NCBI RefSeq assembly: GCF_019263745.1
Contig: NZ_CP077107.1
Coordinates: forward strand, 3,162,001 to 3,226,000
Length of the DNA stretch: 64,000 bases
Source of the DNA: Methanospirillum hungatei
Lineage (GTDB): Archaea; Halobacteriota; Methanomicrobia; Methanomicrobiales; Methanospirillaceae
Reading direction: 5' to 3'
Position 1 is the stretch's first letter. Each line of letters starts with the position of its first letter. Positions 41,032 through 47,652 of the stretch are shown here, in pieces. The translations under genes were made by a program, and so were the position numbers. A model generated the notes under the pieces. The model had not been told where the DNA came from and did not search any database. It was given only the letters and a program-made list of their open reading frames with translations.

Positions 41032-41616
41032 TTATTCCAGAATTTCCCTTTTTGCGGATGCAAGTTTTGGTTCAAGACGCGCTGCTGTTGAAATAGCAAG
41101 ATCAGCACGATCTGAAAGTCCACCGGCTTGCATGATAATTCCTGCATTAAACCAAATTTTTGGCATAGTTGGAAAAAGAGTCAGCGCTTTTTCAATTGCT
41201 TCAAGAGCTGCATCATAGTTACCTGTCTTGTAATAAAGGACAGACAGGTAGTGCCATCTGATCGAAAAATCATTATAATCTACCGGGATTTGATTAAAAT
41301 CACTGATAGCTCCAGGTACATCGCCGGTTTTATATCTGATAAAGGCACGGCGGAATATATACTCCGGATTATCTGGAAACTGCCTGACAAGAACTTCAAA
41401 ATCAGTGAGTGCTTCAGGATACCGTCCTGTGTCAAGGTGACACATCCCCCGGTAATATAAAATATCGAAATCTGTGATTCCACCGGCAATTGCATTGGTA
41501 AAGAAAACACATGCCTCTTTCAGGTCACCATCCCTGTATCTTTTAAGGCCTTCAATATATGCTTTCTTTGCCGGATCATCTACCCGGTTATCAGCCCGGC
41601 TTTCCATAGTGTACAT
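41032..41616 (-). CDS. TPR repeat protein
   Basis: 194 residues with about four tetratricopeptide repeats, such as YYRGMCHLDTGRYPEALTDF and HYLSVLYYKTGNYDAALEAI. No signal peptide. Likely a small protein-binding scaffold. It is convergent with the ABC permease and upstream of nothing related. Confidence 0.82.
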   Translation of the reverse strand: MYTMESRADNRVDDPAKKAYIEGLKRYRDGDLKEACVFFTNAIAGGITDFDILYYRGMCHLDTGRYPEALTDFEVLVRQFPDNPEYIFRRAFIRYKTGDVPGAISDFNQIPVDYNDFSIRWHYLSVLYYKTGNYDAALEAIEKALTLFPTMPKIWFNAGIIMQAGGLSDRADLAISTAARLEPKLASAKREILE

Positions 41617-41656: not shown

Positions 41657-42853
41657 TTACAAACGATGAAAAACCCTGGCCAGACGTTCCATGCCGATCT
41701 GAATTTGTGTTTCAGATGATGCAGAGAAATTCAGTCGTATTGCGCTGTTTCCTCCATCATCGATATAAAACGGAATCCCGGGCATTACAGCAACGCCTTC
41801 TTTGATACCGTGTTCAAATACGTTCATTGAATGCATCGATCCTGGTAATGTGAGCATAAGGAACATGCCTCCACTAGGTATTGTGTGGTGAATTGAATCC
41901 GAAAGAAGATCCTCGATGAGGTCAATCATGAGCCTGCATCGTTCACCATATTTCGCAGCAATCATTCTTGTTCTCTGTTCGATGTCGTTTTTTTCCAGGT
42001 ATTGTGTCATGACCATCTGGGAAAAGAGATTTGAATGAAGGTCTGCTGCCTGTTTTGCCCTGTTAAACGCACAAAGGACCTGAGGTGGAGCACGAATCCA
42101 TCCTATCCGAAGTCCTGGAGCAATAATCTTTGAGAATGATCCACTCATCAACCCCTGGTCCGGAAGGTATTTCATCACTGGTTCTCGGGCTTTCCCATCA
42201 AAGAAGAGTTCTCCAAATGCATCATCTTCATAAAGCAGGCAGTCACTTTCTGACAGTATCTCTGCAACCTCTTTTCTTCTCTTATCTGACCAAGTCAGAC
42301 CGGAAGGATTTTGTGAATTTGGGATTCCATAGAAAAAAACTGGATTATCAGATTGAATGCAATTTTTTAGTTCAGCGGGGTCCGGACCTTCTGTATCCGG
42401 ATTAATTGATGAAAAAGATGGACGATAAAATGAAAAAGCCTCAATTGCACCAAGGTAGCCGGGACGTTCAATTAGGATTTTATCGTTTGGATTTGTGAGT
42501 ATTTTAGCTGTAAGATCAAGTGCCTGCTGAGATCCGTTGAGGATCTGAATTTCGTCAGGGTTTACATGCAATCCAAGGCGTGAATAATATCTCCTGGATA
42601 TAATCTCCCGTAATGGACGGTATCCATCGGTAGTTGTGTACTGGAGAGCGATAGAACCATAGTCATCAAATACTGATTCCATTGCTTTTTTGATTCCCTC
42701 AACATCAAAGAGTGATGCATCAGGAAGACCTCCGGCAAAGGATATGATATCAGGTACTGCAGATACCCTGAAGAGTTCATCAAGAAATGATGGGGGAAGC
42801 GTGTTCATGCAGGAAGCAAACCGGTATGTATGAGTCCCCTCCGGATGAGCCAT
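41657..42853 (-). CDS. PLP-dependent aminotransferase (2-aminoadipate/MocR-like group)
   Basis: 398 residues from ATG at 42853 (MAHPEGTHTYRFAS). The N-terminal ISFAGGLPDASLF and central YGIPNSQNPSGLTW are typical of the LysN/2-aminoadipate aminotransferase group. LLYEDDAFGELFF and SGSFSKIIAPGLRIGW follow, the latter with the PLP lysine; the C-terminal AIRLNFS has the carboxylate Arg. There is no GntR DNA-binding domain, so it is an enzyme rather than a MocR regulator. The start is 78 bp from the divergent propeptide-like gene. Confidence 0.85.
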   Translation of the reverse strand: MAHPEGTHTYRFASCMNTLPPSFLDELFRVSAVPDIISFAGGLPDASLFDVEGIKKAMESVFDDYGSIALQYTTTDGYRPLREIISRRYYSRLGLHVNPDEIQILNGSQQALDLTAKILTNPNDKILIERPGYLGAIEAFSFYRPSFSSINPDTEGPDPAELKNCIQSDNPVFFYGIPNSQNPSGLTWSDKRRKEVAEILSESDCLLYEDDAFGELFFDGKAREPVMKYLPDQGLMSGSFSKIIAPGLRIGWIRAPPQVLCAFNRAKQAADLHSNLFSQMVMTQYLEKNDIEQRTRMIAAKYGERCRLMIDLIEDLLSDSIHHTIPSGGMFLMLTLPGSMHSMNVFEHGIKEGVAVMPGIPFYIDDGGNSAIRLNFSASSETQIQIGMERLARVFHRL

Positions 42854-42931
42854 ATATGATTGTTGACTTCCTATCAGGAAATTGTTTTGATACGGCAAGC
42901 CTATTATCTCCCAAATTCAAATAAGCAGAGT

Positions 42932-43651
42932 ATGCAAATTTCAATTGGCCTTTTGCTGGTATTAGGGGTTTGTGTTATTTTCGGGGTATTTGTCATTGCA
43001 GATAATGTTACCAAGGGTTCAGGGGGATCATTACCTGTTCAGGAGATACCTGATGGAGAAAATTCATCAATACAGGCTGATCTGTTAGTCCGGTTTAATC
43101 CGGAATTGTGGAATACATCTGCAATGAAAGTTGCAGCAAATGCTTCACATACATACATCGGATCTACTGTTGAGACAGATTACACCGATCTTGGACTTGC
43201 CGGTCTGCAGCTGGTAAAACTTCCTCCTGGTATGACTGTAAAAGAAGGAGTTTCATATTATCAGGCACTTCCGTATGTTCAATATGCTGAACCAAATGCT
43301 GTTTATTCAATCGAAAGCACATCAAATTCAACTGCAGCACAACCTGCATCTTTGTCAGCAGTGTCGGATAATTTAACATCGCATAATTCCCGTCTGCTTG
43401 TTCAGTTCAAGGTCCAGGCATTTCCAGATAGACAAAATCTGTCAGTATATGCAAACCAGACTCATGCATCCTTAAATGCAACTCTAGTCAAAGATTTCAC
43501 TGCTGATGGATTGGCAGGCCTTCATCTAATTGAACTACCTTCGAAGATTGGAGTACAAGAGGGAATTGGATTTTATAAAAATCAGTCTTCTGTATTATTT
43601 GTAGAACCGGATTATCCGGTTAGTATCACTACTCCGAAAAAGAAAGTCTGA
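42932..43651 (+). CDS. Exported protein made of two subtilase propeptide-like domains
   Basis: 239 residues from ATG at 42932, which begins a signal or anchor segment (ISIGLLLVLGVCVIFGVFVI); an upstream in-frame ATG would spoil it. Two copies of one domain follow, about residues 50-127 and 154-232. Each ends with the same pattern: GLQLVKLPPGMTVKEGVSYY then VQYAEPN, and GLHLIELPSKIGVQEGIGFY then VLFVEPD. The propeptide of the subtilase at 45859-47652 has GLQVVKVPDSMSVPEAVEYY and VAYAEPN. No protease domain is attached. It could inhibit or assist folding of the nearby subtilase outside the cell; that role is inference. Confidence 0.72.
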   Translation: MQISIGLLLVLGVCVIFGVFVIADNVTKGSGGSLPVQEIPDGENSSIQADLLVRFNPELWNTSAMKVAANASHTYIGSTVETDYTDLGLAGLQLVKLPPGMTVKEGVSYYQALPYVQYAEPNAVYSIESTSNSTAAQPASLSAVSDNLTSHNSRLLVQFKVQAFPDRQNLSVYANQTHASLNATLVKDFTADGLAGLHLIELPSKIGVQEGIGFYKNQSSVLFVEPDYPVSITTPKKKV

Positions 43652-45336: not shown

Positions 45337-45849
45337 TCACTGTGAAGCTGGTATCATAGGGTTTGGTCCTGCCCCTGATATAACGATGCTTGCTGTTTTG
45401 CTCACCGTTTCATACCTGCCATTCCGATCGTCATCAATGATAACTGGCTGAACACTCAGAGTTGCATATCCTGCAGTTAGGGCATGGATGGTCACCTTGG
45501 CAAGATTAGAAATGGAAAGGGCAGGTTCAACCTGATTTCCGAGATCTGCACCCTGAATGAGGACAGTAGTGCTATTTATATGTTCAACTTTATTCATCGA
45601 CACCCATGATGGGAACGTTATCTCACCAAATGATGCAACGGATGGGTTATCAAGGGTGAGATATAAGGCATACCCTGATAATCCTGCATCACATCCCTCC
45701 ATAATGAGGTCTATCTCCGGTTGTTCTCCTGGATTAGATTCGACAACCGAGGGGTTAAAAAAGAGGAGTGAGTATGCTGATACCGGTGCCATCAGCCCAG
45801 CAATCAGGATCAGTACGCCAAGCACTCTGATAGTATTTGTCTGTTTCAT
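45337..45849 (-). CDS. Secreted cohesin-like domain protein
   Basis: 170 residues from ATG at 45849 (MKQTNTIRV), with AGGTG six bases upstream. A signal peptide (cleavage likely after PVSA) is followed by one beta-sandwich domain of about 140 residues. The opening FFNPSVVESNPGEQPEIDLIM and the closing LAKVTIHALTAGYATLSVQP follow the cohesin pattern. Cohesins bind dockerins, and the gene directly upstream encodes a subtilase with a dockerin-like end, so the two may form a complex outside the cell. No membrane anchor or S-layer motif is present. Confidence 0.7.
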   Translation of the reverse strand: MKQTNTIRVLGVLILIAGLMAPVSAYSLLFFNPSVVESNPGEQPEIDLIMEGCDAGLSGYALYLTLDNPSVASFGEITFPSWVSMNKVEHINSTTVLIQGADLGNQVEPALSISNLAKVTIHALTAGYATLSVQPVIIDDDRNGRYETVSKTASIVISGAGPNPMIPASQ

Positions 45850-45858
45850 CTCCATCAC

Positions 45859-47652
45859 CTACACCATCTGATATAATTTTACAACATCACCAAATCCGAT
45901 AAATCCACTTCCATCAAAGTCAAACTGGCCTATTGGTTCTTCTTTCATAGCAAAAAGAATCTGATTGAATAGTAGTTTGGTATCATCATATTCAAGCCAT
46001 CCATTTCCATTGATGTCTTCAAAGAGGCCATCATCATCCGGATCTGTTGGTGTTGGATAGTTACCTCCAGTTCCATCAGGGAAAGCCTTAACCGGTTGGT
46101 ATGGTGGTTTTACATGGATGTAATTCTCTTTCTCTGCGACTGAGCTTAATCCCTCGTTAGAAACCGTCAGAGTAATAGAATATCTTCCTGGCTTCATATA
46201 GAGATGAACCGGATTCTGGGTGGTTGATTCATAACCATCACCAAATGACCAATGCCACTTTGTCGGCTCACCCGTAGAATGATCAGTAAACTGAACATTG
46301 AGTGGAATTGTTCCTGAAGCAGGATTTGCAGAAAAATCTGCCTGCAACGGAAGAACCTGGCTTAATGCATTATACGCGTTGAGTCTCCCCCCTGAAACAC
46401 AACTCTGATTAAGCCAGTACTTCTTATCAACAGTACTCATGAGCAAATTTTTTATTTGGACCGGTTCATTGGCTGGCTTTTCACTTTTAATAAGAGCTGC
46501 CGTTCCTGCAACAAATGGAACTGCCATTGATGTTCCGTCTTCGAATCCATAACTCCCCGGGGTTGTACTATAGATACTCACTCCTGGTGCCATGAGATCA
46601 ACAGTGGTTACTCCATAATTTGAGAACCATGCTTTTAGATTGGATTCGTCACTTGCTCCAACTGAGATGACATGCGGAGAATCATACCCGGATGGATAAT
46701 GGGGGATTTTATCGGTATCATACCCATCATTTCCTGATGAACAGACAAATAATGCAGGAGTATTATCTATAACTTCCTTAAGAATTTCACTGTTGTAGTA
46801 TGTACCCCATGAACATGAGATAATGTCTGCCCCCATTTCAGAGGCATATAATATTCCCTGTATTTCAAGAACGGTATTACTCGTGCCTGCAGCATCAAAG
46901 ACCTTCACCGGAAGAATTTTTGAGTTCCAACTGACACCTGCAATACCAAGGTTGTTATTCGTTACAGCTCCCAATATTCCAGCACAATGAGTTCCATGAC
47001 CATTATCATCCATGGGATCAGTGTCAGAATTTACAAAATCATATCCGCTTAAACAGTTCTCTGCCAGATCTTCGTGATTGTAATCTACACCAGAATCAAT
47101 TACGGCAACGATAACATCAGAAGATCCGGTGGATACATTCCATGCTTCAGGTGCATGAATATCTGACCTGCCTGTGCTCACATTGGTAGTATTGTTGCTG
47201 TATAATCCCCACTGTAAAGAAAAACCTGGATCATTAGGGAAGTTCATTGGCACATCTGCGATATCCAGATTCTCTTCTGTTATACCTGAATCATCTGTCG
47301 GATTTGGCAGGTATGTTATATAGTTTGGTTCTGCGTAAGCAACATATTCATTGGACTTATAATACTCCACAGCCTCGGGAACAGACATGGAATCCGGAAC
47401 TTTCACTACTTGAAGCCCCTTTACTCCAAGTATTTCCTCTGTAAGTTTTGTTTCTGCCCCGATTTGTGCATTCAATGAAGAAGCAACAGATACCACCGCT
47501 GTTCCTGAACCAATGTCATTATATTGAATAATAACTTCTCCCGGTTCATATGTTCCAGATACATCTGCAGCAGATACTGCACCCCATGATGATAACATGA
47601 GCATAAAAAGCATACATGCTCTAAAAACCCACGATACACTCACTCGTTCCAT
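45859..47652 (-). CDS. Secreted subtilisin-like protease with PKD and dockerin-like domains
   Basis: 597 residues. Domain order: signal peptide (1-29), propeptide (about 34-114), S8 peptidase (about 145-430) with the triad Asp186 in VIDSGVD, His219 in DNGHGTH and Ser375 in DGTSMAVP, and oxyanion Asn308. A PKD domain follows (about 435-525, with WSFGDG), then a C-terminal dockerin-like pair of calcium loops (DINGNGWLEYDD and FDFDGSGFIGFGD). It should degrade proteins outside the cell. The calcium-loop pair suggests binding to a cohesin, one of which is encoded 9 bp downstream. Confidence 0.92.
   Translation of the reverse strand: MERVSVSWVFRACMLFMLMLSSWGAVSAADVSGTYEPGEVIIQYNDIGSGTAVVSVASSLNAQIGAETKLTEEILGVKGLQVVKVPDSMSVPEAVEYYKSNEYVAYAEPNYITYLPNPTDDSGITEENLDIADVPMNFPNDPGFSLQWGLYSNNTTNVSTGRSDIHAPEAWNVSTGSSDVIVAVIDSGVDYNHEDLAENCLSGYDFVNSDTDPMDDNGHGTHCAGILGAVTNNNLGIAGVSWNSKILPVKVFDAAGTSNTVLEIQGILYASEMGADIISCSWGTYYNSEILKEVIDNTPALFVCSSGNDGYDTDKIPHYPSGYDSPHVISVGASDESNLKAWFSNYGVTTVDLMAPGVSIYSTTPGSYGFEDGTSMAVPFVAGTAALIKSEKPANEPVQIKNLLMSTVDKKYWLNQSCVSGGRLNAYNALSQVLPLQADFSANPASGTIPLNVQFTDHSTGEPTKWHWSFGDGYESTTQNPVHLYMKPGRYSITLTVSNEGLSSVAEKENYIHVKPPYQPVKAFPDGTGGNYPTPTDPDDDGLFEDINGNGWLEYDDTKLLFNQILFAMKEEPIGQFDFDGSGFIGFGDVVKLYQMV

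Follow-up and report, generated by a model that had tools for sequence, protein, structure and literature searches.

What does a secreted protein made of two subtilase propeptide-like domains do when it carries no protease, and does it act upon the subtilase encoded close by? The question is raised by a window of 64,000 nucleotides (positions 3162001-3226000 of the single-contig, 3.39 Mb Methanospirillum genome G000), in which an earlier note had described such a protein and had taken the nearby subtilase to be its cognate enzyme. We refer to this protein as the double propeptide-like protein (DPP). From what computation shows of DPP (its domain family and predicted fold, its tandem layout and N-terminal export segment, its conservation, and the retained motif and tail), we infer binding, inhibition, glycosylation and target: DPP is probably an exported, N-glycosylated, two-headed propeptide mimic that blocks one or more of the secreted PF22148 subtilases of its genus, and not specifically the neighbouring one.

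A tandem of propeptide-like domains without a protease

The DPP open reading frame occupies positions 42932-43651 on the forward strand, with an ATG at 42932 and a stop at 43651, and encodes 239 amino acids from a start Met that is common to the aligned orthologues. A hydrophobic N-terminus is followed by a short linker and two domains of the Pfam family PF22148 (Fervidolysin_NPro-like). Judged by eye from the orthologue alignment, residues 1-23 (42932-43000) form a predicted signal peptide that ends in VFVIA and is followed by DN; a small residue at -1 and then Asp or Gln are conserved at this point in the Methanospirillum orthologues, and no lipobox was seen when the N-terminal sequence was read by eye.

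In Pfam scans DPP matched PF22148 over two stretches with 52.8 bits (E 5.4e-14). Scored separately in a profile search of the genome, the domains gave 34.3 and 21.9 bits, both above the curated cut-off for this family of 21 bits. Domain 1 extends from 43076 to 43315 and domain 2 (residues 153-233) from 43388 to 43630. PF22148 is the sole Pfam match in all 12 aligned DPP homologues, and neither a protease or catalytic domain nor any other domain was found by these scans in DPP or its homologues, in agreement with the earlier description of two tandem propeptide domains that lack a protease. The scans gave no significant match of DPP to Inhibitor_I9 (PF05922), only to PF22148; DPP is not classed as a member of the I9 family, only as working like one.

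The neighbouring subtilase

The neighbouring subtilase (45859-47652, reverse strand) comprises a PF22148 propeptide (residues 28-110), a Peptidase_S8 domain, a PKD domain and an EF-hand/dockerin-like C-terminus, and the distance of 2.2 kb previously given was confirmed between the gene ends. On its other side the DPP gene is divergent from a class I/II aminotransferase gene (41657-42898, reverse strand), near which lies a gene encoding a TPR-like protein (41032-41616, reverse strand). Comparison of the locus across the genus located the TPR gene near the DPP gene in 10 of 10 genomes and the aminotransferase gene beside it in seven of the ten (not in G005, G010 and G011). Directly downstream of the subtilase is a gene for a small exported protein of 173 amino acids (45337-45858, reverse strand), 68-90% identical across the genus. 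This protein resembles a cohesin-type partner, the subtilase C-terminus having EF-hand/dockerin-like repeats, but a cohesin identity was set aside as neither Pfam nor a PDB sequence search returned a match.

That DPP is the dedicated inhibitor or foldase of this neighbour is an unlikely reading, although the subtilase block is present at the locus in five genomes (G000, G002, G005, G008 and G010), its location on a separate contig in G011 is consistent with the same arrangement, and the propeptide of the enzyme belongs to the same domain family as DPP. The block is missing from the DPP locus in G001, G003 and G007, all three of which retain DPP, and in Methanospirillum stamsii (G009) the subtilase slot holds a papain-family protease (PF00112) with the same PKD domain and C-terminal tail. 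The search for similar pairs in related genomes that had been proposed thus revealed co-location in only part of the genus. Moreover, no member of the neighbour's propeptide clade was found in G001, G003, G007 or G009, in a tree that held part of the domains of G001, and DPP and the subtilase do not form an operon, because they converge and are separated by unrelated genes. The M. stamsii C1 protease (L041:5697-7304) itself represents a swap of catalytic domain on a conserved PKD and dockerin-like C-terminal module.

Sequence relationships also point away from the neighbour. The claim that the DPP domains match its propeptide stands as far as the family is concerned, but identity is only 32%, whereas the nearest propeptide in the genome by search score, that of the subtilase at G000:C1:2087027, is 47% identical over 74 residues. 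All 22 stand-alone domains fall in one clade of the domain tree (97/80), apart from the neighbour's group, although on this short alignment an AU test did not reject a tree joining the two (p = 0.18). The tree hints that the domains were duplicated separately in two clades (AU p 0.31 and 0.35). With the subtilase absent from the locus in four genomes and other propeptides closer in sequence, the proposal that the nearby subtilase is the cognate enzyme was not borne out, and the locus is a caution that distance alone misleads in pairing an inhibitor with a protease. DPP is likely to target other subtilases of the PF22148 family, or else foreign proteases.

Conservation and distribution

DPP orthologues are present in nine other Methanospirillum genomes, with 35-57% overall identity; two fragmentary genomes of the genus (64-67% complete) gave no clear orthologue. 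Pairwise dN/dS within the genus is 0.09-0.24, well below 1 and above most neighbouring genes. The gene is under purifying selection, and whole-gene averages gave no sign of positive selection.

Methanospirillum DPPs contain 8-14 N-x-S/T sequons, compared with 1.6-4.1 in shuffled copies. DPP itself has 10 against about 2, an enrichment of some five times, while the nearby exported subtilase has 5 sequons where 6 are expected. None of the 59 sequons within the two domains of related sequences falls in a beta strand, strands accounting for 29% of the domain residues. This pattern fits surface glycans that would spare the presumed docking face of the sheet, and on the strength of its sequons DPP is probably N-glycosylated.

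Outside the genus, a stand-alone relative with a single domain is encoded by Candidatus Methanofilum and by a related MAG (L052 and L051), and a representative of another genus (G211) encodes a lone-domain lipoprotein of 163 amino acids (L055:6139-6630, reverse strand), which the tree sets apart from the other stand-alone domains on a long branch. The matches listed from 391 phylum genomes and, short of the weakest ones, from 232 class genomes included no further PF22148 protein recognised as both small and intact, and viral contigs gave no relative. Further stand-alone candidates (G283, G460, G316 (phylum sample), G143 and G008:C13) proved to be broken, contig-truncated or frame-split subtilases, and the bacterial pattern matches were all subtilases except for one long protein. 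S8 proteins are encoded in all eight of the genomes checked, each of which has a stand-alone domain. G211, at 98% completeness, lacks any PF22148 subtilase and has one atypical S8 protein, so a lone domain needs no endogenous PF22148 partner. Among the matches listed, Methanospirillum has about eight PF22148 subtilases, whereas related genera usually have one or two. A separate locus (L115, G012:C86) carries two tandem S8 genes, in one of which the His and Ser of the catalytic site seem to have been lost (GGGTH, GTNQA); from its sequence this copy is likely to be a pseudoprotease beside an intact-looking one.

The G211 lipoprotein, together with the export and sequon richness of DPP and a rate of evolution above that of the neighbouring genes, could be taken to mean that DPP inhibits foreign subtilases from other microbes and acts as a protease shield for the S-layer and sheath of the methanogen. 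We consider this improbable, as the nearest propeptides are those of the genus itself, whose PF22148 subtilase set is unusually large, and positive selection was not seen in the whole-gene averages.

Predicted fold and inhibitor hallmarks

An AlphaFold2 model of DPP, built with an alignment of 12 homologues (pLDDT about 80-92), predicts the propeptide fold of two helices on a four-stranded sheet in both domains. Domain 1 runs strand 50-55, helix 63-76, strands 79-83 and 92-96, helix 103-111 and strand 116-121; the corresponding elements of domain 2 are strand 154-159, helix 167-180, strands 184-188 and 197-201, helix 208-216 and strand 221-226. The structural comparison of three domains suggested in the earlier note gave an identical order of strands and helices in both DPP domains and in the AlphaFold2-predicted propeptide of the neighbour. 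Branch lengths in the domain tree indicate that domain 2 evolves faster than domain 1, with the fold predicted alike. A search of the PDB by fold ranked generic tandem ferredoxin-like proteins first and returned one subtilase in the top 50, site-one protease (8uwc; aligned over 83 columns at a probability of 0.99), and a PDB sequence search found no DPP homologue.

In subtilisin BPN' and malarial SUB1 a propeptide Glu-x-Asp motif caps two enzyme helices, and the C-terminal tail runs through the S4-S1 subsites; the capping residues touch the enzyme in BPN' (Glu69/Asp71) and in PfSUB1 (PMC6993865). Alignment identifies an equivalent capping motif in domain 1, E120-P-N122 (43289-43297), with its role assigned from that work, followed by a substrate-like tail, AVYSIE (+1 to +6; 43298-43315). 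The second domain has E225-P-D227 (43604-43612; Asp or Asn in orthologues) and the tail YPVSIT (43613-43630). The Glu and the Asn or Asp are present in both domains of all DPP orthologues, and the Glu and Asn of domain 1 are invariant in 12 of 12 aligned homologues.

Conservation of the domain 1 tail is high to +6 and drops beyond. The predicted mature start of the short-junction relatives is the sequence xxP[ND]DP, and in all 11 of them exactly six residues lie between the motif and the position two residues before P[ND]DP. The mature enzyme is thermitase-like, and the N-terminus of thermitase is YTPNDP. The six-residue spacing puts the predicted P1 at +6, and the G211 lipoprotein ends exactly here. 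Positions +3 and +5 correspond to P4 and P2; with few exceptions they carry a hydrophobic residue, whether the domain is stand-alone or fused (fractions of 0.94 and 1.00 for domain 1, 1.00 and 0.80 for domain 2, and 0.88 and 0.90 for the subtilases). By sequence register, the tail has the right length and the hydrophobic residues to reach through S4-S1. In the M. hungatei orthologues, Leu at +5 is the last residue of domain 2 (YEIRL, then the stop); in the DPP of the window this domain extends six residues beyond +6. Position +6 of domain 1 is acidic (Glu) in most orthologues, and the tail of this domain is internal and hence could be cut.

The description of DPP as a stand-alone, double, exported, propeptide-like protein is supported, and the protein retains the hallmarks of an inhibitor. 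Both motif and tail belong to the traits of the family and could have been retained by descent. Ferredoxin-like folds are readily reused, and the second domain is divergent and scores weakly, as might be expected had the domain been recruited to another extracellular job, as an adhesion or structural module, with loss of protease binding. This is distinctly improbable, given that the enzyme-binding residues and a tail of the predicted propeptide length have been kept, for which a structural module would have no need.

Proposed function and targets

We favour inhibition of the PF22148 subtilases of the genus, whereby each DPP head would dock on a mature subtilase as a propeptide does. The sheet face would rest on the enzyme, the Glu-x-Asn/Asp motif would cap two helices at its surface, and the tail, six residues long, would occupy the substrate cleft and so block the protease. 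DPP would act in this way outside the membrane, on one or more of the secreted PF22148 subtilases. Subtilase propeptides are chaperones as well as inhibitors (PMC10580911), but it is very unlikely that DPP is instead a trans-acting foldase (intermolecular chaperone) for exported subtilases, as the PF22148 subtilases examined have their own propeptide and none needs one in trans.

By relatedness, the candidate targets are the subtilases of 775 and 776 amino acids encoded at 2087027 and 2619728. The phyletic pattern suggests as candidates the group of G000:C1:776745 and 1376652, which the domain tree places in all five of the near-complete genomes compared. It is a tentative and rather doubtful extension of this proposal that a genus-wide, glycosylated, secreted, double-headed inhibitor restrains some eight secreted subtilases between the membrane, S-layer and sheath, such that envelope proteins would be spared until the proteases leave, and that the two heads have diverged for different enzymes. 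A tandem inhibitor throughout the sheathed genus Methanospirillum would reveal how archaea keep their many secreted subtilases in check, and DPP is a compact natural candidate for a two-site inhibitor.

Comparison with known systems

The closest parallel is Plasmodium SUB1-ProM, a stand-alone subtilisin propeptide-like inhibitor for which inhibition has been measured, and which has an E-x-N motif, P4 at +3 and a C-terminal Leu at +5 (Asn148 to Leu153) (PMC6993865). DPP is likewise small, secreted and without an enzyme, with a Glu-x-Asn motif and P4 at +3, and is conserved genus-wide; the M. hungatei orthologues share the end at +5. In contrast, SUB1-ProM is a single-domain eukaryotic protein, syntenic with subtilase genes throughout its genus (PMC6993865), whereas DPP is tandem, archaeal and rich in sequons, has a subtilase neighbour in part of its genus, and is assigned its function from sequence.

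Stand-alone inhibitors of MEROPS family I9 include Pleurotus POIA1, the yeast proteinase B inhibitor and Arabidopsis SPI-1, and Toxoplasma MIC5 is a mimic of this type (PMC6993865). These share a stand-alone propeptide fold with DPP and act on subtilases. These proteins are eukaryotic; in the Pfam scans DPP matched PF22148 and not Inhibitor_I9. Each of the four consists of a single propeptide-like domain.

DPP resembles the fervidolysin-type N-terminal prodomain of thermitase-like subtilases in PF22148 family, predicted fold, motif and tail, but that prodomain is normally fused to a protease and DPP comprises two copies without one. The propeptide of pernisine is archaeal, inhibits its enzyme when added separately, and is highly selective (PMC10580911); unlike DPP it is released from its own precursor and is not separately encoded. 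DPP is most likely a tandem, archaeal form of the known stand-alone propeptide inhibitors, those described in the cited literature being eukaryotic.
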